Assembly: GCF_004014855.1 (NCBI RefSeq) | Contig: NZ_CP034930.1 | Location: 1,302,001 to 1,366,000 of the forward strand | Length of the DNA: 64,000 nucleotides | From: Apibacter raozihei | GTDB lineage: Bacteria; Bacteroidota; Bacteroidia; Flavobacteriales; Weeksellaceae | Direction: 5' to 3' | Shown here: piece by piece, positions 36,638 through 53,343 of the stretch | Position numbering within the stretch: position 1 is the first letter of the stretch | Layout: each line of letters begins with the position of its first letter | Position numbers and translations under genes: made by a program | Notes under the pieces: model-generated | Databases searched by the model: none | What the model saw: only the letters and a program-made list of their open reading frames with translations | What the model was told of the DNA's origin: nothing

Positions 36638-36654
36638 TGTGTAAAAAATACACA
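36638..36654. promoter_or_regulatory. Putative NrtR operator A (VWA operon, distal)
   Basis: TGTGTA-AAAAA-TACACA is a perfect 17-bp inverted repeat (19 bp with flanking T/A). It is one of five related sites in the window, 128 bases before the VWA start codon and 17 bp upstream of a candidate -7 element. Confidence 0.75.
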
Positions 36655-36670
36655 ATATTATTTGTTTGTA

Positions 36671-36678
36671 TAAATTTG
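36671..36678 (+). promoter_or_regulatory. Candidate -7 element of the VWA operon
   Basis: TAAATTTG matches TAnnTTTG and lies almost exactly midway between operators A and B (16 bases from each), so a repressor bound at both would cover the promoter. The -33 element is unclear. Confidence 0.4.
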
Positions 36679-36694
36679 ATTTCGTTAATTTGTT

Positions 36695-36711
36695 TGTGTA
36701 AAAAATACGCA
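36695..36711. promoter_or_regulatory. Putative NrtR operator B (VWA operon, proximal)
   Basis: TGTGTA-AAAAA-TACGCA, with extra matching flanks TT and AA, is an inverted repeat with one T/G mismatch. Its centre is 57 bp from that of operator A. It lies 70 bases before the VWA start codon. Confidence 0.8.
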
Positions 36712-36781
36712 AATATAATTTTAACTTATAGTGTCGACAATAGTAAGGTAAAATTTTTTAGTAACGATTAAAATTTAAATT

Positions 36782-37711
36782 ATGGGAACAGGACATTATT
36801 CTTCAAAAACATACCAGGCAGTTACAAACTCTCGCAACTACCAATCCAAATCTGCAGATCAAATATTTTCAGATTCTTTAAAATTAACCATGAATCCAGC
36901 TAATCTTAAAAACGGAATAAGGGAATGTAGAGATTCTTTGGATCATCCGGTGAGCATACCAATTATGGTTTTTGTTGATGTGACAGGATCAATGGGAAGA
37001 ATTCCTTATAATCTTATTCAAAATAACTTTCCGAAAATGATGAATACCTTGGTTTCACATGGTGTTGAAGATGCTCAAATATGTTTCGGTGCTATCGGAG
37101 ATCATATAACAGATAGTGTACCTCTTCAAATTGGCCAATTTGAGCAAGAAACAACCAAGTTGATAGATGACCTTTCAAATATATATATTGAGGGAGGAGG
37201 AGGAGGTCAATGTATGGAATCTTATCCATTAGCATGGTATTTAGCCGGATATCATACATCTACAGATGCTTATGAAAAAAGAGGAGCTAAAGGTTATCTT
37301 TTTACCATTGGGGATGAATCCTTCCATTCTCAATACAGCAGCGATTTTATTAAAAGGATGATGGGAACAGCTGAAAGTTTGGGTGACTTTACTGCGGAAC
37401 AATTGTATGAAAAAGCATCTGAGAAATACCATGTATTTCATGTTCACGTAGAAGATAGAAGTTATGATACTAATTATATTAAAAATGAGTGGATTCAATT
37501 GTTGAACGAAAATTTCTTAGTCTTACGTAACAGCAATTCAATAGCAGAACTGATAGGAACAACGGTTTCCGTAATTAACGGAGCAAATATGAATTCCGTA
37601 TTAAATACTTTAAGTGATCACGCCGCTAAAGATATTTCAAATACGTTAGCAAAGATTCAATCATTTCTTCCAGATAAGAATGACGAAGGCTCTTCTATAA
37701 TAACACTTTAA
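36782..37711 (+). CDS. VWA-domain protein in the ADP-ribose regulon
   Basis: 309 aa with a von Willebrand factor A-like core. The MIDAS metal motif is DVTGSMG (Asp66, Thr68, Ser70) at the end of a hydrophobic strand (IPIMVFV). A Gly-rich loop follows (YIEGGGGGQCMESY, about 136-149), with a second acidic segment FTIGDESFHSQ. No signal peptide or membrane helix, so it is cytoplasmic. VWA proteins usually act as metal-dependent assembly platforms. It is the first gene of a three-gene unit with a PurA-like gene (62-base gap) and a J-domain/pseudokinase gene. The specific function is unknown. Confidence 0.82.
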   Translation: MGTGHYSSKTYQAVTNSRNYQSKSADQIFSDSLKLTMNPANLKNGIRECRDSLDHPVSIPIMVFVDVTGSMGRIPYNLIQNNFPKMMNTLVSHGVEDAQICFGAIGDHITDSVPLQIGQFEQETTKLIDDLSNIYIEGGGGGQCMESYPLAWYLAGYHTSTDAYEKRGAKGYLFTIGDESFHSQYSSDFIKRMMGTAESLGDFTAEQLYEKASEKYHVFHVHVEDRSYDTNYIKNEWIQLLNENFLVLRNSNSIAELIGTTVSVINGANMNSVLNTLSDHAAKDISNTLAKIQSFLPDKNDEGSSIITL

Positions 37712-37720
37712 TTACAAAAT

Positions 37721-37756
37721 ATCCGGGGGATTATTATACATAATAAAACCCCGGAT
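37721..37756 (+). other. GC-rich hairpin between the VWA and PurA-like genes
   Basis: ATCCGGGG (37721-37728) pairs perfectly with CCCCGGAT (37749-37756). Inside, TTATTA pairs with TAATAA around the loop TACA. It is followed by an A run, not a T run, so it is more likely an mRNA-stabilising or processing structure than a terminator. It is notable in such an AT-rich sequence. Confidence 0.55.
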
Positions 37757-37773
37757 GTTATAAAAAAAATAGT

Positions 37774-38883
37774 ATGATACATATAGTTTTAGGAACAGGT
37801 TTTGGGGATGAGGGTAAAGGACAGTGTGTCCATTCTCTCTCAGATAAAAATACATTGGTTATTAGATTTTCAGGTGGGCACCAATGTGGGCATACAGTTA
37901 TTACCGAATCAGGAAAACGACATATATTTTCACAGTTTGGTTCAGGGTCTTTTCGTAATGCATCTACCTATATAAGTGAATTTTGTACTATGTACCCCAT
38001 AGGATTATTTGAAGAATATAATACTTTAAAAAATAAACTAAGCTCAGAGTTAAAGATGTATGTTCATCCGATGGTAAATATTACTACTCCTTTTGATTTA
38101 GCGTATAATAGAACTATCTCAATGATCAATGGTCATGGTACCTGCGGAGTAGGCTTTGGAGCGACACTTGAAAGAAGTGAAGAGTTTTATAATTTATATG
38201 CCAATGATTTGTTTACCCCTTACATTTATAATACTAAATTTTCATTAATCGAAAAATATTATAAAGAAAAGGTTAGGAAATTAAATATGAGCTCGCAGAT
38301 TATTTATGAACAAGAAGTGTGTCATGCAATGGATGGGTGGAAAGAAAGTATAGAGTTTTTTCAGCAATTTTGTAAAATACATGTTTTAAGTGAAATCCAT
38401 CTCAAGTATAAACACATGGTGTTTGAGGGTTCACAAGGGATTTTATTAGATCAGAATTTTGGCTTTTTTCCTCACGTAACCCGGTCAAATACTACCTCTA
38501 AAAATGCTTTGAAAATTATAGGTGAAAATCAGTTTCATAATAAAGAAATTAGCACATGGTACGTTAGTAGATGCTATCAGACAAGGCACGGAAACGGTCC
38601 ATTCTCAGACAGTGATTCTATAAAACTTAAAAATACCTCAGAAGAGACTAATCAGGCAAATAATTGGCAGGGAAACTTTAGTATATCAAAGTTAGATTTT
38701 TCCCTTATTAAACATTCATTAACCTGCGATAAAATATACAATATGAGTAGTAGAAAAAATCTTATTTTCACTTGTATGGATCAGTTGATTGAAAAAGAGT
38801 TGTTTATGAAAGAGCTGGGAGATAGCTTATTACAGGATTCAGTCGAAAAAATATATTTTAAAAGTCAGCCAGACTGGTTATAG
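37774..38883 (+). CDS. Divergent adenylosuccinate synthetase-like (PurA paralogue)
   Basis: 369 aa, shorter than PurA (about 430). The PurA catalytic elements are present: GFGDEGKG (Asp12, Lys15, matching E. coli Asp13/Lys16), GGHQCGHTV (His40, matching His41), FEGSQGILLDQ and TRHGNGPF. But the aspartate-binding loop TTGRRRRTGW of true PurA is replaced by Asn/Gln-rich sequence (NQANNWQGNF), and the guanine-recognition TKLD reads TCMD. It may therefore use GTP on a purine nucleotide with a different co-substrate, or have lost synthesis. It is not a PurZ by the Asp12 criterion. It lies 27 bases before the J/pseudokinase gene. Confidence 0.85.
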   Translation: MIHIVLGTGFGDEGKGQCVHSLSDKNTLVIRFSGGHQCGHTVITESGKRHIFSQFGSGSFRNASTYISEFCTMYPIGLFEEYNTLKNKLSSELKMYVHPMVNITTPFDLAYNRTISMINGHGTCGVGFGATLERSEEFYNLYANDLFTPYIYNTKFSLIEKYYKEKVRKLNMSSQIIYEQEVCHAMDGWKESIEFFQQFCKIHVLSEIHLKYKHMVFEGSQGILLDQNFGFFPHVTRSNTTSKNALKIIGENQFHNKEISTWYVSRCYQTRHGNGPFSDSDSIKLKNTSEETNQANNWQGNFSISKLDFSLIKHSLTCDKIYNMSSRKNLIFTCMDQLIEKELFMKELGDSLLQDSVEKIYFKSQPDWL

Positions 38884-38910
38884 TCACTAACAATAAATTT
38901 ATATATTAAA

Positions 38911-39801
38911 ATGAAAACTTACATCAAAAATATATTATCTAGTACTTGGTATCCGGATATATGTAAATCGGAATTAGAATATAAACAATTAGTTAAATTG
39001 TTTCATCCGGATTTAAATAAAGACTTGGATTCTCAAAAAATAGTAACACATTTAAATATGTTGAAAAATTTTTATGAAAAAGGAGAAGAATATAATGATG
39101 AATCCGGGAAATTTAATACTAATTATAGATTACACAGGTGGAAAGGGGATATTCAATTATTGAAAAAATCAAAAAGTAATTATGATAAACTTATTCATAT
39201 TGCTAAAACAAATTTTGATAAAGACTCATTTTTACATTTTATGAATTACTTTCCCTCAAATCTGGAGTTTGAAGGAAGCGAATTACAATATATTTCCCAG
39301 TATAAATGTATTCCATTAAGCACTGTTATAAAAAAAATTGAGGCAAATGAGAAAGTAAAACATATAAACTGGATTTATTCCCGTATGATTGAAAGTCTTG
39401 TTTTATTGGAATCACTGGGAATTACTCATGCCGGTTTTAACCCCGACTCTGTATTCGTTGTTCCAGAAATACATGGAATTAAGATTACAAGTTTTTATCA
39501 TATGTGTGCCGGTGAGCTTTCAACAATTTCAGCCAAATATAAACTGTTTTATCCTGCTCAGGTATTTAAAACGAAGATTGCAGGTTCTTATATTGATCTG
39601 AGTTTGATTAAAAAAACAGCAATTGTTGGATTAGGAGACATGAGTGGCTCAGGAGTAAAACTTCGTTCAGATTCTTTAATAAATCCAACAGTACTTGATT
39701 ATTTTTTATATCCGGAAGCGAATGCTTTCAACTCCATGAAAAAATGGAGAAAAATACTTGATTCAAATTTTAGTAAAGAATTTGTAGAACTTAAAATATA
39801 A
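38911..39801 (+). CDS. J-domain/pseudokinase fusion protein
   Basis: 296 aa. The N-terminal about 60 residues look like a compact J domain, with helix ELEYKQLVKLF followed by the HPD motif (32-34), the DnaK-stimulating signature. Residues about 70-250 resemble a protein-kinase fold: a hinge-like stretch, helix IESLVLLESLGI and a catalytic-loop equivalent HAGFNPDSVFV (173-183). The catalytic Asp, Lys and Asn are replaced by Gly175, Asn177 and Ser180, and no DFG is seen, so it is probably inactive as a kinase. It may recruit DnaK to a target. Last gene of the VWA operon. The kinase assignment is moderate. Confidence 0.7.
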   Translation: MKTYIKNILSSTWYPDICKSELEYKQLVKLFHPDLNKDLDSQKIVTHLNMLKNFYEKGEEYNDESGKFNTNYRLHRWKGDIQLLKKSKSNYDKLIHIAKTNFDKDSFLHFMNYFPSNLEFEGSELQYISQYKCIPLSTVIKKIEANEKVKHINWIYSRMIESLVLLESLGITHAGFNPDSVFVVPEIHGIKITSFYHMCAGELSTISAKYKLFYPAQVFKTKIAGSYIDLSLIKKTAIVGLGDMSGSGVKLRSDSLINPTVLDYFLYPEANAFNSMKKWRKILDSNFSKEFVELKI

Positions 39802-40188
39802 AGAAACTAATTGCCTGATTTATATCAGTACTTTTTAAATAGAGTATATCCGGATTTTAATAGAAAGATTCAAAAAAATAATAATTTAATTTTATATAAA
39901 TTTAAAAATAGATAGAATTATAACAATAAAATTTCTTTGTTATCTCGTTGTGCCTTAGATAAGAATTGGCAATTGATCTTAATACACCAATAAAAAGTAA
40001 ATATAAAATACGTAATCTAGGATTTTTACAATTAAATTCAAGTTTATTCTCGATTGTAGGTATTTAATGTAAATGTAGTTGAAAACTATAATTTGTAATT
40101 TACAGATAAAATGAATTGCATAAATTCGCTAAGCATAATTTAATCATTTTTTAATTAAAATCAACGTGTAGCTTTTTAAGATTTAAAG
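39802..40188. other. Intergenic region, no feature recognised
   Basis: 387 bases, very AT-rich, between the J/pseudokinase gene and the MFS gene. I see no open frame with family features, no tRNA and no copy of the regulon operator. A short weak hairpin lies near 39813-39827. The promoter of the MFS gene should lie here but I cannot place it. Confidence 0.5.
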
Positions 40189-41418
40189 ATGGAAAGATCC
40201 GATAATGAATTTTTGGTGCACAACGAATCTGTAGATAAAGCAAAGAAGAACAGTAAAAGATTTAACAGGATCGAGTTTTGCATTTTTCTTTCAGGAATAT
40301 GTGTTTTTGCACAATTGTATATTTTTCAGCCTATGCTTTCATTAGTCGGAGGAGAGTTTATAGTCTCACCGGCGAAAAGTAGCTGGACAGTATCATCCTC
40401 TACAATGGGAATGGCAATTGGCTTGTTTTTCCTAGCATTCAAAGCAGATTCAATATCTAGAAAAAATGTAATGGTATTTTCTCTTATTATTTCCTCATTG
40501 TTGACTATTTTATCTGGTTTTGTTTTTAATTTTTCATTATTGATTATTCTGAATTTAATAAAAGGAATAGTTTTAGCGGGTGTTTCCTCAGTAGCATTAG
40601 CTTATTTATCAGAAGAGGTGGATATTAAAACATTAGGATTTGCGATAAGTATGTACCTAAGTGGGAATACTACAGGAGGTATGTGCGGTAGGGTAATTGC
40701 AGGTCTTTTATCCGGATGGATAGGCTGGAGAGATACAGTGGTTATTATGGGAATTTTTACATTAATTTTAGGAATTCTATTCGCAATTTTATTTCCGGAT
40801 TCGCGTTTTTTTAATCCAAAAAATACATCCGTAAATGAAAAACTAAAATTAATGAAAAGTTTTCTGAACGATCGAATGATGATTCGTTTATATTTGGTAG
40901 CAGGATTGTTAATGGGAAGTTTTATTGCTTTATACAATTACCTGGGTATACATTTAGAAAGACCTCCATTCTCCCTGCCGCATTACCTGATAGCCTTTAT
41001 TTTCCTAATGTATGTTACAGGCGTTATAGGTTCTATAACTATTGGGAAATGGTCAGATGCACATCCCCCTTACAAGCTGATAAGAATTCCGGGCTCATTA
41101 ATAATAGTAGGATTATTATTGATGCTACCGAACAATTTAGTATTTATAATCATAGGTTTAGGACTTTTTACCTTTAGTTTTTTTGCTACACATACTTTAG
41201 CCAGTCGTATGGTATCACAACATGCCAAAGAAGGGAAAAGTACAGCAACCTCCATATATTGGTTATTTTATTATGTGGGTTCTAGTATTATTGGTACAGG
41301 AACAGGTATTATTTATGCGCAGAAAGGTTGGGATTATTTTGTTTTTACCTTATTAGGATTGACTGTTGTTTCATTTCTTCTTTCCATAAAATTGATAAAA
41401 AAATCTGCAACACATTAA
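40189..41418 (+). CDS. MFS transporter (YnfM/AraJ-like)
   Basis: 409 aa with about 12 membrane helices and a hydrophilic N-terminus of about 27 residues. The 4-TMS-type features GMAIGLFFLAFKADSISRK and the central loop are those of the major facilitator superfamily; a drug or metabolite exporter is the usual annotation. The substrate is unknown. It lies inside the ADP-ribose region but has no operator, so its membership of the regulon is not supported. Confidence 0.85.
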   Translation: MERSDNEFLVHNESVDKAKKNSKRFNRIEFCIFLSGICVFAQLYIFQPMLSLVGGEFIVSPAKSSWTVSSSTMGMAIGLFFLAFKADSISRKNVMVFSLIISSLLTILSGFVFNFSLLIILNLIKGIVLAGVSSVALAYLSEEVDIKTLGFAISMYLSGNTTGGMCGRVIAGLLSGWIGWRDTVVIMGIFTLILGILFAILFPDSRFFNPKNTSVNEKLKLMKSFLNDRMMIRLYLVAGLLMGSFIALYNYLGIHLERPPFSLPHYLIAFIFLMYVTGVIGSITIGKWSDAHPPYKLIRIPGSLIIVGLLLMLPNNLVFIIIGLGLFTFSFFATHTLASRMVSQHAKEGKSTATSIYWLFYYVGSSIIGTGTGIIYAQKGWDYFVFTLLGLTVVSFLLSIKLIKKSATH

Positions 41419-41575
41419 ATAGTTTTATTTTTACTGATTGAGAATAAAAATATTTCATTAATCTATAATTAATTTTTTGTTCAAAAATTAAATCAAAAAG
41501 TATAAGATTAAACTGTTGTTTTTTTATTTAAATCTCAATATATGTTAAGAGTTCTTCAGATTAGGTAAATAAAAA

Positions 41576-42856
41576 TTATTTTTTTTCAATCCGTAATAAA
41601 TATATTCCTAAAAGCAAACCGATGGAGAATAGAACTATAACATAATATGCAGGGGCCAGTACACTTACAAAATTTGTAAGAAGAGAAATTAATAAAGGAG
41701 TAAGACCGCCGGCAAAAGCATAGGCAATATTAAATGAAAATGAAACTCCTGAATATCGTATCTCAACCGGAAAACTTCTGACCATATAAAAGGCAAAACA
41801 ACCTACAACTCCTACGCCCAAACCAGCCAGGCCATAAGTTAGAAAAAGTAGTTCTGGGTGTGAAGACAAAGTAGTATAAAATATATAGGTACTAACAATG
41901 CAAAATAAAGAACCCGCAATAAGAGTTTTGCTAAAGCCAATCTTATCTGCAGCTAATCCTGAAAGAATACAGCCTAGGGTAACCCCGGCAATAGCTATGC
42001 TGTTTGCTTCTTGAGAAATAATAACAGGAAATTTATATACAGATTGTAAATAACTAGGAGCTAGTAATATCACAACCATTATACCTGCCGATAACACCCA
42101 GGTTAAAAGCATACATACTATTACTGAATGTTTATGTTTAGAAATGACCGTTTTAACTGGAACATTTTTATCCAGTTTTTTTCTTTTTGCCATTTCCGAA
42201 AATATAGGAGTTTCTTTTAACCATCTCCGGAGGAACATAGAAATTAATCCGAAAATACCACCCAATATGAAAGCAAGCCTCCATCCATAAGATAAAACTT
42301 CTGAAGCTGAATAAAAAGTGTTGATCAAAGTAGAAACTAAAGAACCTAAAAGAATACCTAATGTTAAGCCTCCCGTTAAAATTCCACAAGCCAGGCCTAT
42401 TTTCTGAGTAGGTACGTGTTCCGAAACAAATACCCAGGCACCTGGAATTTCACCACCAACGGCAGCACCCTGACAAATCCGCATAAATAATAGTAAGAAT
42501 GGAGCTAAAATTCCTGCTGTATGAAAAGGAGGTAAAAAACCGATGAGTAACGTAGGTGCCGACATTAAAAATATACTAAAGGCGAACATTTTTTTTCTAC
42601 CCAATCGATCTCCGAAATGTGCCATGATAATTCCTCCAAAAGGACGTGCCAAGTAGCCGGCAGCAAAAATCCCATAAGTTTGCACCTGAGAAAGCCACCT
42701 CGGTATTTCCGGAGGAAAAAACAGCATTTCAATTTGTTTGGCAAAAAATACATATATAATAAAATCATAAAACTCAAGAGCGCCACCTAGCGCTGATAAA
42801 CCTAGTATTCTATAGTCTTGGTTTGTTAAGTTTTTTTTTACTCCGGAAATTATCAT
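41576..42856 (-). CDS. MHS-family MFS transporter (ProP/ShiA/KgtP-like)
   Basis: 426 aa, 12 membrane helices, with the metabolite:H+ symporter signature: GALEFYDFIIYVFFA near the N-terminus, ARPFGGIIMAHFGDRLGRKK after helix 2 and GGEIPGAWVFVSEHVP. Members import organic acids, betaine or proline with protons. The substrate is not deducible. It is divergent from the PutP-type symporter gene. Confidence 0.9.
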   Translation of the reverse strand: MIISGVKKNLTNQDYRILGLSALGGALEFYDFIIYVFFAKQIEMLFFPPEIPRWLSQVQTYGIFAAGYLARPFGGIIMAHFGDRLGRKKMFAFSIFLMSAPTLLIGFLPPFHTAGILAPFLLLFMRICQGAAVGGEIPGAWVFVSEHVPTQKIGLACGILTGGLTLGILLGSLVSTLINTFYSASEVLSYGWRLAFILGGIFGLISMFLRRWLKETPIFSEMAKRKKLDKNVPVKTVISKHKHSVIVCMLLTWVLSAGIMVVILLAPSYLQSVYKFPVIISQEANSIAIAGVTLGCILSGLAADKIGFSKTLIAGSLFCIVSTYIFYTTLSSHPELLFLTYGLAGLGVGVVGCFAFYMVRSFPVEIRYSGVSFSFNIAYAFAGGLTPLLISLLTNFVSVLAPAYYVIVLFSIGLLLGIYLLRIEKK

Positions 42857-42892
42857 ATGTGTTAAATCTAAGTATTATAATTAATAGAAATG

Positions 42893-42900
42893 CAAAATTA
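42893..42900 (-). promoter_or_regulatory. Candidate -7 element of the MHS transporter gene
   Basis: The minus strand reads TAATTTTG (TAnnTTTG), 36 bases before the ATG at 42856. Confidence 0.35.
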
Positions 42901-43182
42901 GCTATTAACAGTAGATAATAGATAAATTAAATAGGTTTTTTATTCAATAGATTAATATATATATTTTAGATTAATTTTAAAAATTAGACCTTAACACTGT
43001 TTTTTCTTTAAGTTTTTTCTTTAAATATTAGATAAAAAAAGTGCTGAGGTCAGGTTATTCAATAAAATAATAAACAATAAGTAATATAAAAATCTTACAT
43101 TTACTGCACATGATAAAAATCATAACTAACTATTAGGGTTAAAGTTATGAAATTAATAAGATGTAATTAAAATGCTGAAAAT

Positions 43183-43210
43183 ATTAATAACAAACATAAT
43201 TGTTATTAAT
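43183..43210. repeat. Perfect inverted repeat upstream of the sodium symporter gene
   Basis: ATTAATAACAA (43183-43193) and TTGTTATTAAT (43200-43210) are perfect complements with a 6-base spacer. The repeat ends 88 bases before the putP-like ATG. It looks like an operator for a dimeric regulator; the lack of GC pairs and of a downstream gene end argues against a terminator. Confidence 0.5.
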
Positions 43211-43298
43211 TTTATTTTATCTTGACTTTTTTTTACTCATTTTTGTATTATTTACTATCTTAGGGCGCGAAATAAAATTTTAACTATAATTATAAAAT

Positions 43299-44810: not shown

Positions 44811-44852
44811 GTTTGCTATAGTATTTAAAATATATCGGCCGCAGCAAAATAT

Positions 44853-44883
44853 AAAAAAATCCCTTAATAAAGGGATTTTTTTT
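44853..44883 (+). terminator. Rho-independent terminator of the sodium symporter gene
   Basis: AAAAATCCCTT-AATA-AAGGGATTTTT is a perfect stem followed by T residues, 42 bases after the stop codon. It isolates the nrtR operon from read-through. Confidence 0.85.
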
Positions 44884-44897: not shown

Positions 44898-44914
44898 TGT
44901 GTAAAATTAACGCA
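44898..44914. promoter_or_regulatory. Putative NrtR operator C (nrtR operon, distal)
   Basis: TGTGTA-AAATT-AACGCA: arms match the regulon consensus TGYGTA-N5-TACRCA with one change (first base of the right arm). Its centre is 53 bp, about five helical turns, from the centre of operator D. Confidence 0.65.
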
Positions 44915-44944: not shown

Positions 44945-44952
44945 TACATTTG
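44945..44952 (+). promoter_or_regulatory. Candidate -7 element of the nrtR operon
   Basis: TACATTTG matches TAnnTTTG. Its last two bases are the first two bases of operator D, so bound repressor would cover the transcription start. Confidence 0.55.
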
Positions 44953-44967
44953 TGTATAAATCACGCA
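44951..44967. promoter_or_regulatory. Putative NrtR operator D (nrtR operon, proximal)
   Basis: TGTGTA-TAAAT-CACGCA, ending 8 bases before the nrtR ATG and overlapping the -7 element by two bases. The position predicts autorepression. Confidence 0.75.
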
Positions 44968-44975: not shown

Positions 44976-45677
44976 ATGGAAAAAAGAGGCAAGTATATTT
45001 ATGAATATCCCCGTCCTGCAGTTACCGCAGATTGTGTAATTTTCGGATTTGATGAGGGAGAATTAAAAATCTTACTGATTGAAAGAGCCATCGAGCCATT
45101 TTTAGGTAAGTGGGCATTGCCCGGAGGGTTTATTGATATGAATGAGGATGCTGATGATTGTGCCAGAAGAATATTAAAACAAGAAACTTTGTTGGAAAAT
45201 ATTTTTATGGAACAGTTGTATACATTTACAAAAGTTGAGAGAGATCCCAGGTTTAGGGTGATTAGTATTGGGTATTATGCATTAGTTAAGCTATCAGACT
45301 ATAAGGCAGAAGCTGGTTTATTTACCTCAAAAGTTCAATGGTTTCCGGTTTCTGAAATTCCCGAGTTGGCCTTTGATCATAAAACGATTGTTGACTCTGC
45401 AAAAGAAAGGTTAAAAGGTAAAATAAAGTACAAACCTATAGGATTCGAATTATTACCGGAAAAATTCACAATGCCTGATTTACATAAATTATATGAAACA
45501 GTTCTTCAAACAGAATTGGATAGAAGAAATTTTCGAAAAAAAATATTGAGTACTCATTTACTTATAGATCAAAATGAGTTAGTGAGTGGCTCTCCCCATA
45601 GAGCAGCAAAAGTATATAGCTTTGATAAAAATAAATATGAAGAATTATCTAAAAATGGATTTTATTTTGAAATTTAA
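44976..45677 (+). CDS. nrtR: NrtR-family Nudix transcriptional regulator
   Basis: 233 aa. An N-terminal Nudix domain (YPRPAVTADCVIFGFDEGEL, then GKWALPGGFIDMNEDAD) is fused to a C-terminal winged helix starting about residue 165 (FTMPDLHKLYETVL, DRRNFRKKIL). The Nudix box reads G51-x5-E57-x7-R65-I-L-K-Q-E: two catalytic glutamates are replaced (Ile66, Gln69), as expected for a sensor rather than a hydrolase. NrtR proteins bind ADP-ribose or related NAD products and leave their operators. It is the first gene of a six-gene unit and probably controls all five sites found here. Confidence 0.9.
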   Translation: MEKRGKYIYEYPRPAVTADCVIFGFDEGELKILLIERAIEPFLGKWALPGGFIDMNEDADDCARRILKQETLLENIFMEQLYTFTKVERDPRFRVISIGYYALVKLSDYKAEAGLFTSKVQWFPVSEIPELAFDHKTIVDSAKERLKGKIKYKPIGFELLPEKFTMPDLHKLYETVLQTELDRRNFRKKILSTHLLIDQNELVSGSPHRAAKVYSFDKNKYEELSKNGFYFEI

Positions 45678-45688
45678 AACAATTAAAG

Positions 45689-46243: not shown

Positions 46244-46263
46244 TATAAATAGAAAAGCATCAG

Positions 46264-46950
46264 GTGAAAAATTTAGTTGTATTGACAGGAGCTGGTATCA
46301 GCGCGGAAAGTGGGATTAGTACTTACAGAGATCTAGATGGATTATGGGGAAATTATAACCCAAAAGAAGTAGCTTCAATTAAAAGTTGGGAAAGGGAACC
46401 GCAAAAAATGTTGGATTTTTATAACTTATGTAGAAATAAATTGAAAGACATACAACCCAACAAGGCACATAAGTTGGTCAAAGATTTAGAAAATACATTG
46501 AGTGTTCAAGTTATTACACAAAATGTAGACGATTTACATGAAAAAGCCGGTTCAACAAACGTGCTACACCTTCACGGGAAACTAACAGAAATGAGAAGTG
46601 AAAAAAATCCTGATTTAGTGTCAATATTTGATAAAGATTTAGTTATAGGTGATTTAGCATCCGATGGCTTTCAGTTGCGTCCTAACGTAGTCTGGTTTGG
46701 TGAAGAAGTACCCATGATTGAAGAGGCAAAGAAAAAAGTTGAAAGTGCTGATATTTTACTTATAGTAGGAACTTCCCTACAGGTCTATCCGGCTGCTTTT
46801 CTTGTTTTTTATGCACGAAAAGGTATTCCTGTATATTTGATCGATCCCAATCCTGAAGAAGAAACTTTAGAATCAGTAAATTACATCAGGAAAAGTGCTT
46901 CAGAGGGGATGAAGGAATTTTTAGAGCATGTGCTAAAGACAGTTATATAA
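46264..46950 (+). CDS. Sirtuin (NAD-dependent deacylase, Sir2 family)
   Basis: 228 aa with NAD-binding GAGISAESGI (9-18), TQNVDDLH (85-92), catalytic His104 in HLHG and GTSLQVYPAAF. It has only one cysteine (Cys56), so the zinc tetrad of most sirtuins is absent. The Tyr-x-x-Arg acyl-pocket pair of class III reads Y53-N-L-C56-R57. The product of deacylation would be O-acyl-ADP-ribose, a substrate for the macro and DraG proteins beside it. A GTG start is used; the stop overlaps the next start codon. Confidence 0.93.
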   Translation: MKNLVVLTGAGISAESGISTYRDLDGLWGNYNPKEVASIKSWEREPQKMLDFYNLCRNKLKDIQPNKAHKLVKDLENTLSVQVITQNVDDLHEKAGSTNVLHLHGKLTEMRSEKNPDLVSIFDKDLVIGDLASDGFQLRPNVVWFGEEVPMIEEAKKKVESADILLIVGTSLQVYPAAFLVFYARKGIPVYLIDPNPEEETLESVNYIRKSASEGMKEFLEHVLKTVI

Positions 46951-47900
46951 TGATGAATAAGCCAATACATAGTACATTATTTGGAGTTGCTATTGGAGAT
47001 GCTTTAGGGGTTCCGGTTGAATTTAAAAGCAGGGAGTATTTAAAAGTAAATCCTGTAGTAGATATGATGGGTTTTATGTGTTGGAATCAACCACCAGGAA
47101 CCTGGTCTGATGATAGTTCCTTAACATTTTGTTTAGCAGATAGCTTAACTTACCGGTATGATTTAAATTCTATTGCCAAACGTTTTGTGAAATGGTATAA
47201 ATATGGACATTGGGCAGCTCATGGAAAGGTTTTCGATGTAGGTGGAAGCACCCGTAACTCAATTTTGAGACTTATCAAAGGAGAATCACCTAAGTTTTCA
47301 GGAAATTTTTTCGAAGAAGATAATGGAAATGGTTCACTAATGAGAATTATTCCTCTGGTATTTTATCTTAAAGATCGGGAAGTAAAAGAAATTTTTAACA
47401 CAGTAAAAGAAGTTTCAGGTATTACCCATGCACACTTCAGATCGGTTTTTTCATGCTTTATATATGTGCAGTATGCAATAGAGATAGCACAAGGAAAAGA
47501 CAAAATTCAGGCATATTATGAAATGCAAGATAAAGTAAGTGCTTTTCTGAGCGATAATGAATTTGATACTCAGGAAGTAAAGCTGTTTAATAGGATTCTA
47601 AATAACAATATTGCAAATTTAGAAGAAGACAGAATAGGCTCTTCAGGATATGTCTTAGACAGCCTGGAAGCGTCTATTTGGTGTCTTTTAAAAGAGGATA
47701 CTTTTCAAAGTACGGTTTTAAAAGCAGTAAATTTAGGTGGTGATACGGATACAACGGCTGCAATTGCCGGAGGGCTGGCCGGGTTACTTTACGGATTTGA
47801 TGCAATACCTCAACACTGGATAAACCGTTTAGCTAGGGCTGAAGATATTAAAAATCTTTGCGATAGGTTGGAAAGAAACATACATAAAATAAAGAAGTAA
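46950..47900 (+). CDS. ADP-ribosylglycohydrolase (DraG/ARH family), copy 1
   Basis: 316 aa all-helical metal hydrolase. The metal-binding motifs are GDALGVPVEF (16-25), WSDDSSLT (52-59), a central EDNGNGSLMRIIPLVF and C-terminal GGDTDTTAAIAGGLAG. DraG/ARH3-type enzymes remove ADP-ribose from Arg, Ser or O-acetyl-ADP-ribose; which one applies is not decidable here. It starts on the last base of the sirtuin stop, implying coupled translation. Confidence 0.94.
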   Translation: MMNKPIHSTLFGVAIGDALGVPVEFKSREYLKVNPVVDMMGFMCWNQPPGTWSDDSSLTFCLADSLTYRYDLNSIAKRFVKWYKYGHWAAHGKVFDVGGSTRNSILRLIKGESPKFSGNFFEEDNGNGSLMRIIPLVFYLKDREVKEIFNTVKEVSGITHAHFRSVFSCFIYVQYAIEIAQGKDKIQAYYEMQDKVSAFLSDNEFDTQEVKLFNRILNNNIANLEEDRIGSSGYVLDSLEASIWCLLKEDTFQSTVLKAVNLGGDTDTTAAIAGGLAGLLYGFDAIPQHWINRLARAEDIKNLCDRLERNIHKIKK

Positions 47901-47944
47901 ACTTTTAGAGATAAAGGATGAAAATTAAATGAATTTGAATAATT

Positions 47945-48454
47945 ATGAGATTAAAACTGATGGATAATAAAGAAAAAATTAAAGCTATTAATTATTTAAA
48001 AGGAGATGCTACCTCTCCGCAAGCAGGAGGAGTAAAAATTATAGCACATATTTGTAACGATATCGGGGGCTGGGGGAAAGGATTTGTTTTAGCTATATCT
48101 AAAAGATGGGCGGAGCCCGAAAAATCCTATTGCCTATGGCATAGAGAAAGAAATAAGAATAATTTCAAGTTAGGAGAGATAGAGCTTATTCAAGTAGAAA
48201 AGTATATTTACGTAGCTAATATGATTGGACAAAGAGGTACAAAAACAGGAAGTAATGGAGTACCCATCCGTTACGAAGCAGTAGAATCTTGTCTTACAAA
48301 ATTAGCTCAACAGGCAAAAGATTTACAAGCCAGTGTACACATGCCTCGTATAGGTTGTGGATTAGCCGGAGGTAAATGGGAAATGATAGAGCCTTTAATT
48401 ATAAATACTCTGATTAAAATGGACATTAATACATACATATATGATTTCGATTAA
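47945..48454 (+). CDS. Macro-domain protein, Appr-1''-p processing type
   Basis: 169 aa single macro domain: YLKGDATSP, AHICNDIGGWGKGF (the ADP-ribose loop, in the ALC1/Poa1-like form) and HMPRIGCGLAGGKWE. Such domains hydrolyse ADP-ribose-1''-phosphate or bind ADP-ribose. Adjacent kptA makes ADP-ribose 1''-2''-cyclic phosphate, so the two could act in sequence after a cyclic phosphodiesterase. An alternative start is Met6 at 47960. Confidence 0.92.
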   Translation: MRLKLMDNKEKIKAINYLKGDATSPQAGGVKIIAHICNDIGGWGKGFVLAISKRWAEPEKSYCLWHRERNKNNFKLGEIELIQVEKYIYVANMIGQRGTKTGSNGVPIRYEAVESCLTKLAQQAKDLQASVHMPRIGCGLAGGKWEMIEPLIINTLIKMDINTYIYDFD

Positions 48455-48471
48455 AAAAGAAAAAACAAAAT

Positions 48472-49026
48472 ATGATGGATGATATAGAAAGAAAGAACAT
48501 AGGCAAATTTATAAGCCTTATCCTTCGTCACGAACCCAAGAAAATAGATTTAGACTTAGATAGAAACGGGTGGGCGGATGTAGAGGAATTAATACGAAAA
48601 TCAAGCATACATAAAATCTACTTTACTAAAAAAGAATTAGAACTAATTGTAGAATCTAATGATAAAAAAAGATATTCATTTAATAATGATAAAACCAAAA
48701 TAAGGGCTAATCAGGGACATTCAATCCCTATAGATATGGAATTTGAACCTGTTGAACCTCCGGAATTTTTATTTCATGGAACGGCAGAACGTTTTTTATC
48801 CTCAATTAGAGAACAGGGTATTACTAAAATGAGTAGACAGCATGTACATTTAAGCAGTACTAAAGAAACTGCAAATAAAGTCGGGGCAAGACATGGGAAA
48901 TCTGTAGTATTAACCATACATTCAGGAAAAATGTATAAAGAAGGTATAATATTTCATAAATCAGTGAATGGGGTTTGGTTAACCGAATATGTACATCCCG
49001 TTTATATAGAGGAGAGCAGTAAATAA
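48472..49026 (+). CDS. kptA: RNA 2'-phosphotransferase KptA/Tpt1
   Basis: 184 aa. Catalytic residues are visible: Arg19-His20 in LRHEP, Arg78 in RANQGHS (78-84), then FLFHGT and HVHLS. KptA uses NAD to remove an internal 2'-phosphate from RNA, releasing nicotinamide and ADP-ribose 1''-2''-cyclic phosphate. Bacteria lack the fungal-type tRNA splicing that needs it, so its substrate is open; RNA repair is the leading idea. Last gene of the nrtR unit, 17 bases after the macro gene. Confidence 0.95.
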   Translation: MMDDIERKNIGKFISLILRHEPKKIDLDLDRNGWADVEELIRKSSIHKIYFTKKELELIVESNDKKRYSFNNDKTKIRANQGHSIPIDMEFEPVEPPEFLFHGTAERFLSSIREQGITKMSRQHVHLSSTKETANKVGARHGKSVVLTIHSGKMYKEGIIFHKSVNGVWLTEYVHPVYIEESSK

Positions 49027-49289
49027 AACAGGTATTGATATATTGCTCAAATAATTTATTAAATGATAGTATGATATGTTTGTTGTATTTATTTAATAGA
49101 TAATCAATTGCTTATGATTTTTTATAGTTCTTTATTGAATAATTGTATAGTAAAAGTTGTTTTTATGATGAATAGGTTAGGTTAATTTAAATAAATGCAC
49201 TAAATTAGACAAGAATTAAAAGATACTTCAGTAAACACTAAATTAAAATCTTTTTTTTAACATAAAAAAACTTTAACAACAATTATAAC

Positions 49290-50588
49290 ATGAAAATTAA
49301 ATTACATTTATTAGGTTTTATTTCCTCTATTACAATTTTGTCAGGTCAGGTAGGTGTAAATACCTTAAATCCGCAGGCTGTTTTACACATAGATGGAGCG
49401 AAAGATAACCCCACAGCCGATGTTCCAACAGCAGTTCAGCAATCTAATGATTTTGTGGTTACTTCTGCTGGAAGTGTAGGGATAGGGACAATGACGCCAG
49501 ATGCGTCTTCTATTTTGGAAATCAATGTGAAAGAACTGGCAAGTGGAAGTAAACGAGGATTTTTAGGTCCGCGGGTATCCTTATCGTCTATTACAGATAA
49601 AACAACTATAAACAATCCAGCTTTAGGTCTATTGGTTTTTAATCTGGGCGAAGTATCAACACTGAATTATGTTGGGTACGTTTTCTGGAATGGAACAGAA
49701 TGGAGAGCTCTGGATGGGCGTTCCCTTTCTGCCGGTACTATTAGTTCCATTGTTTGTAATAAAGTAACTTTAACTCCTACAACCTATACATCAGGTACGG
49801 CGTATACTGGCGTTATGGATATTCCTTACACAGGGGGAAACGGAGGTACATATGATGCTCAGACCGTTGGGCCGGTTAATGGATTAACAGCTACTTTAGC
49901 TGCAGGTAACTTTGCTACTGGTTCAGGTACCCTAAATTATACAATATCTGGAACTCCAACAGTAACTTCTCCGCAAACAACCACTTTTGAGATATCCATA
50001 GGAGGTCAGACCTGTAGTGCCATAGTGGGTGCCGGAGATGGAATTTCTCTGGGAGAGCTTGTATATTATAAAAGTCCTAATATAGATGCGTCCATAGGCG
50101 GTGGGGGTGCGAATGGCACTATTGCAACCAATTGGCTTAATAATTTTGCTTCTGATTTACCTATAATCGGAGGAAAAATCAGATTAGACGGCTACTTTAC
50201 AGATAGTAGTAACGGTGGCCCCGGAACGGTTTCATTCAATCCTCGATTAGTAAATATTTCAAGTTCTCCAGTAAAAATTTGGTTTTCAGCTTTAACTAAT
50301 GTGGATAGATCTAATGGGGCTAATATAGTGATGGCTGCAAATGGAGGTTGGATAAATTTGGACAATGGTATATATCTTAACTATGGTGTGAATCAATTGA
50401 CAAGTGATGGAGGCTCAGCCTCCACTACCGATACAGGAAGTACAAGTCAGGAAGTATTAACTATGGACATCTCATTGGATGAGAAATGGTATAGAGTTTA
50501 TTATTTCCCTAATGTCGATAATAATGATACAGCAGATAATAGTGATAATTTTAGACGTATATATATATCCATTCAAAGATTATATTGA
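49290..50588 (+). CDS. Secreted surface protein, unknown function
   Basis: 432 aa with a signal peptide (MKIKLHLLGFISSITILSGQ). The N-terminal part has the flavobacterial cell-surface layout VGVNTLNPQAVLHIDG, VGIGTMTPDASSILEI and RGFLGPRVSLSSITD, ending in a GYVFWNGTEWRAL motif. A Thr/Gly-rich beta region and a C-terminal beta domain follow. I see no type IX sorting domain. It is not obviously connected to ADP-ribose metabolism. Confidence 0.8.
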   Translation: MKIKLHLLGFISSITILSGQVGVNTLNPQAVLHIDGAKDNPTADVPTAVQQSNDFVVTSAGSVGIGTMTPDASSILEINVKELASGSKRGFLGPRVSLSSITDKTTINNPALGLLVFNLGEVSTLNYVGYVFWNGTEWRALDGRSLSAGTISSIVCNKVTLTPTTYTSGTAYTGVMDIPYTGGNGGTYDAQTVGPVNGLTATLAAGNFATGSGTLNYTISGTPTVTSPQTTTFEISIGGQTCSAIVGAGDGISLGELVYYKSPNIDASIGGGGANGTIATNWLNNFASDLPIIGGKIRLDGYFTDSSNGGPGTVSFNPRLVNISSSPVKIWFSALTNVDRSNGANIVMAANGGWINLDNGIYLNYGVNQLTSDGGSASTTDTGSTSQEVLTMDISLDEKWYRVYYFPNVDNNDTADNSDNFRRIYISIQRLY

Positions 50589-50995
50589 TAAATAAATTTA
50601 ATTTTAAAATAATAAAATAAAATTCTTAAATATGTATAAATGCCTGATTATAAAAAATCAGGCATTTGTAATTAGGTTCAGCTTATTTATAAAATAAAAA
50701 AATTCATCATTTTAATCATAAATAACACGATATATTATTCATTAGTTACTTGGGAATGACTTTCAGTTTAAGATAAATATAATGTAAAAACATATTGAAA
50801 AATTTAGCTGAATTGATACTTTATTCAAGAATTAATGTTAAAAAAATGAAAAAAATGTTTATCCGGTATTTTTTATTTGTTTTCTGATTGTAAAAAAATT
50901 TATTCAAACAGAATGAATATGCGTTAAATTTCTCAATAACAGTCGTTTCTGTTTTTTAATACTTTTAATTTTTTTTAAAATTGCAGAATTAATAT
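50589..50995. other. Intergenic region with a terminator, otherwise empty
   Basis: 407 bases. Apart from the terminator at 50638-50667 and a weak short hairpin AACAG/CTGTT (50938-50953), I find no gene, tRNA or regulon operator. The promoter of the next gene should lie in the last 150 bases. Confidence 0.5.
50638..50667 (+). terminator. Hairpin terminator after the surface-protein gene
   Basis: AAATGCCTGATT-ATAAAA-AATCAGGCATTT: perfect 12-bp arms, short T tail, about 50 bases after the stop codon. Confidence 0.7.
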
Positions 50996-51004
50996 TTGAA
51001 AAAA

Positions 51005-52054
51005 ATGATGAAAATTGAGAACATTTTAAAGCTAACTATTATCTTTTTTACACCTTTATGGTTATCCTCACTTTATGCACAAGTAACTATAGGGATGGAT
51101 GAAATTCCTGAATCAGGTGCACTACTACAGATTAAAGAGCTTAAGACCTCAGGAAGTGAAGCAAATTCCAGTAAAGGGATTTTACTTCCCAGAGTCAATT
51201 TAGTTTCTAGGACTTCATTAGTTCCTACTTTAAAAGCTTCTGAAGAAAATGAAGGAGAAAAACAAAAGCATACAGGGCTGGTTGTTTTTAATGTGAATGT
51301 TGTACCCAATCCAGATGCGTCCTTAGCATTAGAGGAAGGTGTTTATATTTGGGATGGAACCCAGTGGAAAGCCGGTAAAAAAAAGAATAACGGACAGACA
51401 ACTAATTTTATAGTTCCTGTCTTTGCTTCGGTTTATTATGTAGATACTCAGCAAGCTCAAATAAAAGCTACTGTTTCTTCCAATGCCGAATGGGTTGCAA
51501 GTGTAACCGATGACCCCAATAATTTAATTTCATTAATTACAACATCTGGTCCAAGTGGGAAAACTGAGTTCCTATTTAATCTAGCAGGAATAAATCCTGC
51601 AAAAGATTTAAATAGCAGTGCTACTATAACTTTTACAAGTGTTACGAACCCACAAGTAGTAGAAACAATTACTTTTGATTTAAAACAAACAGCTAACGGC
51701 TATTATTTTCCAGAGCTAAATGTTGTATTTGGCGGAGGGCCTCAGGCTAGTTCACAATCTGGTGCTACAACATATTGTGCAAATCTTAGTCCCGCAGGAA
51801 CTTGGCGTGTTCCTAACTTATATGAGCTCGCATCTGCTTTTGCAATAATTAAAATGAATGGTAATGCTCCAGTAGCTAATTATGGATTTGTTTCAGGAAA
51901 TTATTATTGGTCATCAACCAAATATAATACTTCCTTTGGTAGAACGGTTTTATTTTCAGATGGTGTTACTACTTCTGATCAAAATGCGGGTGCTCAGGCA
52001 GTTTTTAATAGCAATACTCCTTATAGGGTAATATGCGTAAAACCTATACAATAG
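51005..52054 (+). CDS. Secreted surface protein with BACON-like and FISUMP-like domains
   Basis: 349 aa from the ATG at 51005 (an in-frame TTG lies at 50996). A signal peptide ends near SLYAQ. The N-terminal module (GALLQIKEL, KGILLPRVNLV, YIWDGTQWKA) is the same type as in the previous surface protein. A beta domain resembling BACON follows, then a C-terminal module with TYCANLSPAGTWRVPNLYEL and YYWSSTKYN, typical of FISUMP/DUF1566-like lectin-fold domains. Probable adhesin or glycan binder; function not known. Confidence 0.8.
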   Translation: MMKIENILKLTIIFFTPLWLSSLYAQVTIGMDEIPESGALLQIKELKTSGSEANSSKGILLPRVNLVSRTSLVPTLKASEENEGEKQKHTGLVVFNVNVVPNPDASLALEEGVYIWDGTQWKAGKKKNNGQTTNFIVPVFASVYYVDTQQAQIKATVSSNAEWVASVTDDPNNLISLITTSGPSGKTEFLFNLAGINPAKDLNSSATITFTSVTNPQVVETITFDLKQTANGYYFPELNVVFGGGPQASSQSGATTYCANLSPAGTWRVPNLYELASAFAIIKMNGNAPVANYGFVSGNYYWSSTKYNTSFGRTVLFSDGVTTSDQNAGAQAVFNSNTPYRVICVKPIQ

Positions 52055-52076
52055 ACAACTGATAATTATACTTCTC

Positions 52077-52110
52077 AAAAGGCAATTATTCATTTGAATA
52101 ATTGCCTTTT
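52077..52110 (+). terminator. Rho-independent terminator after the second surface-protein gene
   Basis: AAAAGGCAATTATTCA pairs with TGAATAATTGCCTTTT around a tiny loop, followed by a T-rich run. Strong intrinsic terminator 22 bases after the stop. Confidence 0.85.
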
Positions 52111-52153
52111 TATTTTTTATCTTGCATCAACTTGTCGCAATGAAGGTTTAATA

Positions 52154-52170
52154 TGTGTAAAAGATAGTAA
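52154..52170. promoter_or_regulatory. Possible degenerate regulon site before DraG copy 2
   Basis: TGTGTA-AAAGA-TAGTAA: the left arm is perfect but the right arm matches only three of six positions. It directly abuts the ATG at 52171. It may be a half-site or chance. Confidence 0.25.
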
Positions 52171-53052
52171 ATGAATAGTATAAATTTAATTGAACGTTTG
52201 AGAGGCAGCCTGATAGCTGGTACTATAGGAGATTGTATAGGAAACAGATATGAGGGGTCTGAACCTGGAGATATAATTGAATGGGATTTTAATTGGCAAA
52301 TTTCCGATGACACTCAAATGACTTTGGCAACCTGTGAAGCAATATATGATAAAAAGATAATCAAGCCCGAAGAGGTAGCAAATTCTTTTTTAAACTGGTA
52401 TAATAAAGGGCGGATAACGGGTGTGGGTTCTGCTACATTGAAAGCTTTACGTGAACTTCAGGTGGGAGGACATTGGGCTTTAGTTGGAAGGTCAGGTGAA
52501 TTTGCAGCAGGAAACGGAGCTGCAATGAGAATAGCTCCCCTCGCATTTAAAAATGTTTCAGAAAATTTCATCATAAAAGATATTTGTAATATAACACATA
52601 AAAATGATGAAGCATATATTGGTGCGCTAGCTGTTTACTATGCTATAAAATATGCTATTGGAGGTAAATGGTGTGGATATTCCGACTTAATAGAAAAGAT
52701 TATTCCTTTATTACCAGATACTTTAATAAGAGATAAATTACTTGAATTTCAAAAGTTTAAAAATGAACCTTTACAATATTTAAAAACTGTGCCACGACCT
52801 ACAGGGTATGTTGTAGATTCCGTTCCAGTTGCTTTATTTGCTGCTCAGAAAATACATGAGTCTTCTTTAGAAGAAATAATTTTAAATTTAACAGCCTTAG
52901 GCGGAGATACTGATACTGTTTGTTCCATCTGTTCGCAAATTATCGGAGCATTAAAAGGAACTAATGGTATACCAGAACACTGGATAGAAAAATATAAAAG
53001 ACTATACGCAAGTGAAATTATTGAAAATCTAGTTTGTAATTGGAAATTTTAG
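52171..53052 (+). CDS. ADP-ribosylglycohydrolase (DraG/ARH family), copy 2
   Basis: 293 aa. Motifs GTIGDCIGNRYEG (17-29), SDDTQMTLA, the central AAGNGAAMRIAPLAF and C-terminal GGDTDTVCSICSQIIGAL hold the metal ligands. It is clearly diverged from copy 1 (different loops, SDDTQM rather than SDDSSL), so it is not a recent duplicate and may have another target. It lies about 300 bases before the macro/PARG pair on the same strand. Confidence 0.93.
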   Translation: MNSINLIERLRGSLIAGTIGDCIGNRYEGSEPGDIIEWDFNWQISDDTQMTLATCEAIYDKKIIKPEEVANSFLNWYNKGRITGVGSATLKALRELQVGGHWALVGRSGEFAAGNGAAMRIAPLAFKNVSENFIIKDICNITHKNDEAYIGALAVYYAIKYAIGGKWCGYSDLIEKIIPLLPDTLIRDKLLEFQKFKNEPLQYLKTVPRPTGYVVDSVPVALFAAQKIHESSLEEIILNLTALGGDTDTVCSICSQIIGALKGTNGIPEHWIEKYKRLYASEIIENLVCNWKF

Positions 53053-53320
53053 TTTTATTAATTCAATATTTTATTAGAAAATAATCACTTTAATTAGAGA
53101 AGCTAGTCAGTCTTTACTTTATTGATATTTTTTATAATGAAACATTCAGTGTATTTCCTTTTAGGCTCTTTATATAAGGTAATAAGAAATTATATAACTT
53201 GATAATTTTTTGTATATCCTGATGGTATTTTTATAAATTTCTTTAGCTACTTTTAAATACTCTCAAAAATAATGTTGTAAGTCTCTTTGCATAATATTGA
53301 GATAAATCAAAAAAAAGAAT

Positions 53321-53328
53321 TATATTTG
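53321..53328 (+). promoter_or_regulatory. Promoter -7 element of the macro/PARG operon
   Basis: TATATTTG matches TAnnTTTG, and a TTG at 53297-53299 lies 21 bases upstream, in the accepted -33 range. Its last two bases are the first two bases of operator E, the same geometry as at nrtR. Confidence 0.6.
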
Positions 53329-53343
53329 CGTAAATATTACACA
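53327..53343. promoter_or_regulatory. Putative NrtR operator E (macro/PARG operon)
   Basis: TGCGTA-AATAT-TACACA: both arms match the consensus TGYGTA-N5-TACRCA, 7 bases before the ATG at 53351 and overlapping the -7 element. Confidence 0.78.

Follow-up and report, generated by a model that had tools for sequence, protein, structure and literature searches.

Regulation of NAD metabolism by NrtR was reportedly described by Rodionov in 2008. We analyzed a window of 64,000 nucleotides from Apibacter raozihei (positions 1302001 to 1366000 of the single contig, NZ_CP034930.1, of a genome of 3,293,048 bases) that carries a candidate NrtR regulon of three units: one with VWA-like, PurA-like and J-domain-like genes (the VWA unit), the nrtR unit and a unit of macro-domain and PARG-like genes (the macro/PARG unit). 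Positions are those of the window unless the genome or another locus is named, and papers given by PMC number are cited from excerpts of their text. The NrtR regulons of NAD metabolism (PMC6800001) likewise have a repressor with Nudix and winged-helix domains encoded beside its targets, a palindromic operator and autoregulation, and they share NAD targets with relatives of the window. However, the operator of Mycobacterium NrtR, GTTTTCGA-N7-TCGAAAAC, differs from that of the window (PMC6800001), whose main targets would be ADP-ribose erasers and the VWA/PurA-like module. In the AraR/XylR branch, represented by BtAraR (PMC4666351), the AraR_C domain, the GTGT-N7-ACAC half-sites and the tandem operators before an operon are as in the window, whereas the arabinose pocket residues differ and the genes of the window regulon are not sugar genes.

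Counter-ADP-ribosylation systems centered on ADP-ribosylglycohydrolase (PMC9503650) share that enzyme, Nudix-helix-turn-helix, vWA, Macro and NADAR components with the window, where the vWA assignment comes from a motif seen by eye and from gene context, not from Pfam. The excerpts name these systems from actinobacteria, planctomycetes and proteobacteria and give phosphatase partners (rhodanese or other) for a little more than 55% of them, whereas Pfam and NCBIfam scans of the unit proteins in the window gave no rhodanese or other phosphatase partner. A logic combining ADP-ribosylglycohydrolase, Nudix-helix-turn-helix and vWA as a defense against phage enzymes was predicted in the same paper, whose main text mentions neither PurA nor adenylosuccinate. 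Lastly, phages (Bixzunavirus and others) carry genes of the same three families as the VWA unit (phrog_2971, phrog_1211 and phrog_3043), but their records give names only (kinase, PurA-like synthetase, hypothetical) and no role, and the kinase gene comes first there and last in the window. In a mostly open-access literature, searched by titles and the beginnings of abstracts, we found no description of the operator, of such a regulon in Flavobacteriia or of the VWA/PurA-like/J module.

We consider it probable, from operator, gene and protein comparisons, that the NrtR of the window binds one shared operator, represses the three units, including the VWA/PurA-like/J module, and is released by a ligand of the ADP-ribose type. 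An earlier note on this DNA had described five copies of TGYGTA-N5-TACRCA in front of the units; all five were found where it had placed them, three exact and two with one mismatch. Since relatives have A or T as the sixth base of the half-sites, the pattern was widened, after they had been inspected, to TGYGTW-N5-WACRCA (the refined pattern). The sites, none of which is assigned a strand, are as follows, with their distances to the start codon.

36638..36654, no strand: distal operator of the VWA unit, TGTGTAAAAAATACACA, 0 mismatches to the first and the refined pattern; 127 bases
36695..36711, no strand: proximal operator of the VWA unit, TGTGTAAAAAATACGCA, 0 mismatches to both patterns; 70 bases
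44898..44914, no strand: distal operator of the nrtR unit, TGTGTAAAATTAACGCA, 1 mismatch to the first pattern, exact to the refined one; 61 bases
44951..44967, no strand: proximal operator of the nrtR unit, TGTGTATAAATCACGCA, overlapping TACATTTG, 1 mismatch to either pattern; 8 bases
53327..53343, no strand: operator of the macro/PARG unit, TGCGTAAATATTACACA, overlapping TATATTTG, exact to both patterns; 7 bases

The earlier note had also proposed a genome-wide motif scan, which was run here with the reversed pattern as control and found exact copies confined to the window rather than spread at random. All three exact copies of TGYGTAN5TACRCA in the genome fall in the window, and allowing up to one mismatch gave 20 places against 6 in the control. 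The refined pattern had four exact copies, all of them window sites, and none in the control. These scans ruled out chance palindromes. Within the window, up to two mismatches gave 10 matches to the first pattern against a shuffle mean of 4.64.

The operators are tied to promoters as well as to genes. In 58 of 61 sites (the five of the window and the exact intergenic sites of the compared loci L079 to L113), the eight bases ending at the second base of the operator read TAnnTTTG, a motif with a background of 0.18% of non-ORF (open reading frame) positions. We take it to be the −7 promoter box of Bacteroidota, and bound NrtR would cover it. Second operator copies (up to three mismatches) upstream in 101 distinct boxed promoters lie at 54 bp (26 cases), 52 bp (19) or 53 bp (4), which is about five helical turns, while any other distance within 20 to 133 bp was found in at most three cases. 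The window has such twins at the nrtR unit (53 bp) and the VWA unit (57 bp) and a single copy at the macro/PARG unit; in Chryseobacterium it is the second unit that has a twin, nrtR and pncB being mostly single. A terminator-like hairpin ends shortly before the first operator both in the VWA unit (36592-36635, directly before 36638) and in the nrtR unit (44853-44882, found on the minus strand, before 44898), so both units probably have their own promoters. A sigma-70 promoter scan was uninformative (93 found against 91.1 in shuffles).

Relatives link the same operator to most of the same genes. Our family sample comprised 296 genomes, namely 149 of genus g20 (Chryseobacterium), 146 others (from further genera and the remainder of the window's genus) and the window genome. 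The VWA protein occurs in 107 of them, all g20 except the window genome, and in g20 its gene is usually near the best nrtR match. Across 20 g20 loci compared in detail (288,374 bases), the shared order is nrtR, NADAR, VWA, PurA-like, macro, PARG-like, ARH (ADP-ribosylglycohydrolase), macro, Sir2, ARH and KptA; by this order, most genes of the three window units, the J gene excepted (found in 0 of 20 loci), form one cluster in relatives. The arrangement is unlike that of the window and individual loci lose or gain genes: in L093 and L094, 6 to 9 kb of other genes follow nrtR, and the contig of L097 lacks nrtR. Several Chryseobacterium clusters also contain genes absent from the window units, such as a 2OG-Fe(II) oxygenase (PF13640, L079:4626-5171) and a DUF4291 protein (L079:8117-8704).

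The first pattern with up to one mismatch gave 41 matches in these loci against 2 in the reversed control, and only 3 of the 41 lie inside genes. An operator stands 7 to 10 bp 5' of nrtR in all 19 loci having this gene; 19 of the 20 loci also have one at the head of the second unit, 2 to 3 bp from the next ORF in 15 of them. At the genome level, exact copies of the refined pattern numbered 523 in the 149 g20 genomes and 186 in the control (medians 3 and 1; the 14 matches of G194 are inflated by two repeated sequences, and G135 has 11), while the 146 others, the window genome excluded, had no excess (126 against 143). Ten recurrent third sites, picked blind to the gene, all lie 2 to 4 bp before a 392-residue ORF, which is nicotinate phosphoribosyltransferase PncB in L099 and, judged by length and sequence, in the other nine. 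The pncB gene is a classic NrtR target.

The association extends to wider relatives. In a sample of named genomes (the best 80 of 521 PurA-like loci), the 32 loci that hold NrtR carry 66 exact operators (control 1), while the 48 without it carry 4 (control 1), of which three are well placed (L122 at 8822 and 19086, and L155 before a J gene) and that of L132 is not. L113, from genus g32, has an operator before nrtR and another before a TonB receptor gene followed by a NadR-like gene. L122, from a Prevotella metagenome-assembled genome, encodes the nearest PurA-like protein found (60% identical). Its twins at 8822 (exact) and 8879 (one mismatch), which share the 57-bp spacing seen in the window, precede VWA, PurA-like, TonB receptor, PnuC and NadR genes, and a second pair (19086, exact, and 19138, one mismatch) precedes a PARG-like gene on the opposite strand (8822-19154); nrtR was not found in the 21 kb examined. 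On an IMG/VR viral contig (L216:4100-11134), NrtR, an exact operator at 4813, an adenylyltransferase-Nudix gene and a nicotinamide phosphoribosyltransferase gene (NAMPT) are followed by two HAD-like ORFs (by eye) and by J, VWA and PurA-like genes, which suggests a phage-side version of the regulon. With exact copies in the window genome found only here, this comparative evidence bears out the proposal that one NrtR-type operator joins the VWA, nrtR and macro/PARG units.

The protein fits the sites. The first gene of the nrtR unit had been read as an NrtR-type regulator, and its product indeed matches PF00293 and PF21906 above cut-off; two of the operators (44898 and 44951) stand in front of this very gene. 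Its best solved relative is BtAraR (5bs6, E 8e-55), followed by SoNrtR (3gz5, E 4e-31). The contacts in the BtAraR-DNA complex define GTGT, and the bound DNA is GTGT-N7-ACAC (PMC4666351), a spacing that the operator core of the window, GYGT-N7-ACRC, matches. The recognition helix, DRRNFRKK from residue 182, is a near match to the DKRNFRKR of BtAraR, whose contacting Lys179, Arg180, Asn181 and Lys184 (PMC4666351) correspond to Arg, Arg, Asn and Lys, and it is common to 54 of 57 NrtRs of the compared loci.

In the model that we favor, an NrtR dimer would bind the GYGT-N7-ACRC operators, overlapping or adjoining the −7 box of the three units, and block transcription, and the second operator 53 to 57 bp upstream at two units would probably strengthen repression. 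When the level of ADP-ribose or a close derivative rises, through NAD breakdown or the removal of ADP-ribose marks, the Nudix domain would bind it and NrtR would be released. The cell would then make the VWA/PurA-like/J-pseudokinase module along with NADAR, two macro proteins, the PARG-like protein, ARH, KptA and Sir2, possibly in repair of, or defense against, ADP-ribosylation of RNA and protein.

Several observations weigh against so tidy a regulon. With up to one mismatch allowed, the refined pattern matches the genome at 53 places and its control does so at 30; a low mismatch count is therefore not distinctive by itself, and single-mismatch copies are mostly noise. Of the 49 one-mismatch places, two are in the window (44951 and 52034) and 44 others were read, the remaining three being left out; of the 44, 34 fall within ORFs of 100 codons or more and 10 outside them. 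Fourteen of them were shared with the scan of the first pattern (11 in ORFs and three identical ORF-free copies, none boxed), and of the other 30, 23 are in ORFs and seven are not. Three of these seven, all intergenic and outside the window, also carry the TAnnTTTG box. Conversely, an exact box is missing from 36638, 36695 and 44898 in the window itself, the only exceptions among the 61 sites; 36638 and 44898 are distal copies, and 36695 has TTTGTTTG, one base off. The VWA unit is missing from the eight other searched genomes of the genus, and pncB of the window species, rejected here as a target, has no operator.

The claim that no equally good copy exists elsewhere holds for exact copies but is not entirely accurate for one-mismatch copies, as 52034 and a genomic site at 1405511 illustrate. 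The first (52034-52050, TGCGTAAAACCTATACA) has one mismatch, as many as 44898 and 44951, but is probably not a working site, because it overlaps the 3' end of an ORF (50996-52054), has no TAnnTTTG box and is separated by a terminator-like hairpin (52077-52110) from the next gene at 52171. The same hairpin makes it unlikely as the operator of that gene, which encodes a second ADP-ribosylglycohydrolase (ARH2). A perfect half-site, TGTGTA, is found at 52154, just 5' of ARH2, and with the 52034 copy it may represent a decayed operator. The second (genome 1405511-1405527, TGTGTTAAAATAACATA, minus strand, box TATATTTG) lies 39.5 kb beyond the end of the window and 11 bp 5' of a 99-codon ORF that by eye resembles a YdhR-type monooxygenase, and it is a credible fourth target outside the window. 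The other two boxed copies have, respectively, no ORF of 80 codons and only an 86-codon ORF 155 bp away. Three identical near-operator sequences occur in ORF-free DNA at genome positions 785243, 1752921 and 1945486, and are probably copies of a repeat, for example an rRNA region.

A rival reading concerns the nature of the inducer. It is possible, although we regard it as rather unlikely, that the operators are of the NrtR family but that the signal is a sugar or some other compound derived from NAD, for example NAD itself, ADP-ribose phosphate or nicotinamide riboside. The closest solved homolog of the window NrtR (5bs6) senses arabinose, BtAraR being released by L-arabinose, and NdnR of Corynebacterium responds to NAD (PMC4666351). 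Of the ADP-ribose contacts of SoNrtR, listed with their BtAraR replacements in PMC4666351, Asn43 and Lys76 are not conserved, the window having Ile39 and Glu70. The phosphate-binding Arg41 (R37 in the window) is kept in 38 of 57 NrtRs, including that of the window, and is Gln in the other 19, which are Flavobacterium-type with Phe39 nearby as in BtAraR. In addition, the NCBIfam model of the ADP-ribose-responsive repressor NtrR (NF050029) scored 148.7 bits, missing its equivalog cut-off of 400 bits.

The arabinose pocket, on the other hand, is not kept either, since Phe36, Leu67 and Gly89 of BtAraR are Ile39, Glu70 and Arg92 in the window. Arg92, the equivalent of SoNrtR Arg98, is Arg in 57 of 57 NrtRs, as against Gly (Gly89) in BtAraR and Leu in two further NrtR paralogs of the genome, L016 and L018. 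Glu70, at a Nudix-box position, occurs in 56 of 57. The Nudix box (REUxEE core), broken in the window NrtR (44976-45677), is intact in all 18 Chryseobacterium NrtRs tested, which fits a nucleotide pocket, and the targets are ADP-ribose and NAD genes. With moderate confidence, we read these residues as a pocket of the nucleotide type whose ligand is most likely ADP-ribose or something close to it; ADP-ribose as the signal is plausible.

The genes of the three units and ARH2, all on the plus strand, are as follows.

36782..37711, +: VWA-like protein, 309 aa; MIDAS-like DVTGS by eye; phrog_2971 (unknown function), E 8e-42; no Pfam match
37774..38883, +: PurA-like protein, 369 aa; PF00709, E 4e-44 over 4-280; phrog_1211, E 3e-56
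38911..39801, +: J-domain-like plus pseudokinase protein (J protein), 296 aa; HPD at 32-34; phrog_3043 kinase, E 1e-4; neither Pfam nor NCBIfam match
44976..45677, +: NrtR, Nudix plus winged helix, 233 aa; PF21906, E 3e-24, PF00293, PF19368
45689..46243, +: NADAR protein; PF08719, E 1e-55
46264..46950, +: Sir2-family protein; PF02146, E 1e-41
46950..47900, +: ADP-ribosylglycohydrolase (ARH1); PF03747, E 3e-75
47945..48454, +: macro-domain protein, DarG-like; PF01661, E 3e-6; PADLOC DarG model, E 3e-11
48472..49026, +: KptA/Tpt1 RNA 2'-phosphotransferase; PF01885, E 4e-51
52171..53052, +: second ADP-ribosylglycohydrolase (ARH2); PF03747, E 2e-45; regulon membership uncertain
53351..53866, +: macro-domain ADP-ribose hydrolase (macroB); NF001664, 233.7 bits, cut-off 200
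53863..54705, +: TIGR02452 protein, which we take to be PARG-like; 271.4 bits, cut-off 50

Relatives of ARH2 sit inside the cluster in some Chryseobacterium loci. PADLOC, run on 10 of these 12 proteins (NrtR and macroB were left out), assigned NADAR to PDC-M42C, the first macro protein to DarG and, weakly, the J protein to PDC-S63, the other seven having no match. Further downstream, two similar ORFs in tandem (55533-56945 and 57187-58602) resemble secreted metalloproteases (HExxHxxGxxH by eye), an apparent duplication.

According to the excerpted literature, NADARs reverse ADP-ribosylation of RNA guanosine, PARGs reverse that of the RNA 2'-OH and protect against an ADP-ribosylating toxin (PMC11833690), and KptA processes RNA 2'-phosphates using NAD (PMC9503650). 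In the light of these roles, the regulon resembles a tool set for clearing ADP-ribose from RNA and protein, one that would be induced by the damage product.

Of 80 bacterial loci, 74 hold both a VWA and a PurA-like gene, as do 77 of 80 viral loci, and the two genes share a strand with VWA leading. The gene upstream of VWA is a J gene in 59 of 164 annotated loci or encodes a 111-residue protein in 75 of 164, and never were both present. These counts are not independent, several of the viral loci being nearly identical to one another. As a new finding, the pair emerges as a module that is widespread in bacteria and phages and has two partners that never occur together. The 111-residue protein is the partner in 28 of the 32 loci with NrtR, and the window is unusual in having the J gene, in having it last rather than first and in having it in an NrtR setting. 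Among the 48 bacterial loci without NrtR, conserved gene sets neighboring the module in 9 have representatives matching SUKH-1 and DUF1266, which point to no clear function; in marine Flavobacteriaceae of this kind, the 111-residue, VWA and PurA-like genes are followed by SUKH-1 and DUF1266 (L129:11684-12736, L128:15288-15947).

The model of the J protein (predicted local distance difference test, 94) matched protein kinases with probability 1.00 and a template modeling score of about 0.5. Read by the general roles of the HPD, HRD and DFG motifs, it keeps HPD, but with HxG in place of HRD and the aspartate of DFG lost, we call it a pseudokinase. The PurA-like protein, read by the residue roles of PurA, keeps GDEGKG, the active-site His and Gln and the TRHGxG loop and is without the aspartate loop (TTGRRR is replaced). 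Its best PurA equivalog score is 130.7 of 402 bits, short of a full-length adenylosuccinate synthetase match, and a separate full-length purA lies elsewhere in the genome. The kept motifs, the lost aspartate loop and the separate PurA together indicate that it probably retains phosphoryl-transfer chemistry on another substrate.

In 50,697 phage records, there were 207 matches to VWA and 226 to PurA-like (E 1e-5) and 190 to the J-kinase (E 0.01). In mycobacteriophage Bread, the kinase, VWA-like and PurA-like genes adjoin one another, with a polynucleotide kinase gene two genes before the kinase. Recurrent neighbors in the 80 viral loci, their families named from single scanned representatives, are R2K ATP-grasp (28), HAD_SAK_2 (19), a name that refers to RNA repair, DNA ligase (17 and 10), RNA ligase (10 and 6) and Thg1 (7). 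We tentatively suggest, as a speculation that may well prove wrong, that the VWA/PurA-like pair and its interchangeable partner, J-pseudokinase or 111-residue protein, form an undescribed nucleic acid or NAD repair machine of bacteria and large phages. PurA-like would phosphorylate a purine oxygen of a substrate other than inosine monophosphate plus aspartate, perhaps a damaged or ADP-ribosylated RNA base or damaged NAD, and NrtR would induce the machine in response to ADP-ribose as a sign of NAD loss, in hosts and at least one phage.

A more ordinary reading, which we find doubtful but worth keeping in view, is that the regulon serves NAD homeostasis and the VWA/PurA-like module is an accessory of NAD salvage rather than of repair or defense. 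The pncB, NadR, PnuC and NAMPT genes that share the operator, or its gene run, in relatives would fit such a role, but most regulon genes of the window belong to ADP-ribose-removing or RNA-end-mending families, and RNA ligase, Thg1 and HAD_SAK_2 genes are repeatedly found near the module in viral loci.

It is improbable that another regulator, such as L016, binds these operators. Cross-binding could occur, since the genome has two NrtR paralogs besides the window protein, three in all, and L016, with the nearly identical helix DKRNFRKK, might compete; the recognition helix therefore fails as a discriminator. Neither paralog, though, has an operator within 500 bp upstream (best, three mismatches), and the sites of relatives adjoin nrtR genes of the Arg92 type, whereas L016 and L018 have Leu at that position. 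That the palindromes are only a part of the promoter, with no repressor involved, is very improbable: most of them do overlap TAnnTTTG, but they have inverted symmetry with the N7 half-site spacing of NrtR and distal twins at 52 to 54 bp, and exact copies are found nowhere else in the genome.

Under the NrtR regulon proposed here, the predicted link between sensing and removal of ADP-ribose would become a defined regulon with operators resolved to the base. A module common in Bacteroidota and large phages would be placed under a known kind of sensor, which is a pointer to its substrate, and the viral contig L216 suggests that hosts and phages may use the same switch on opposite sides.

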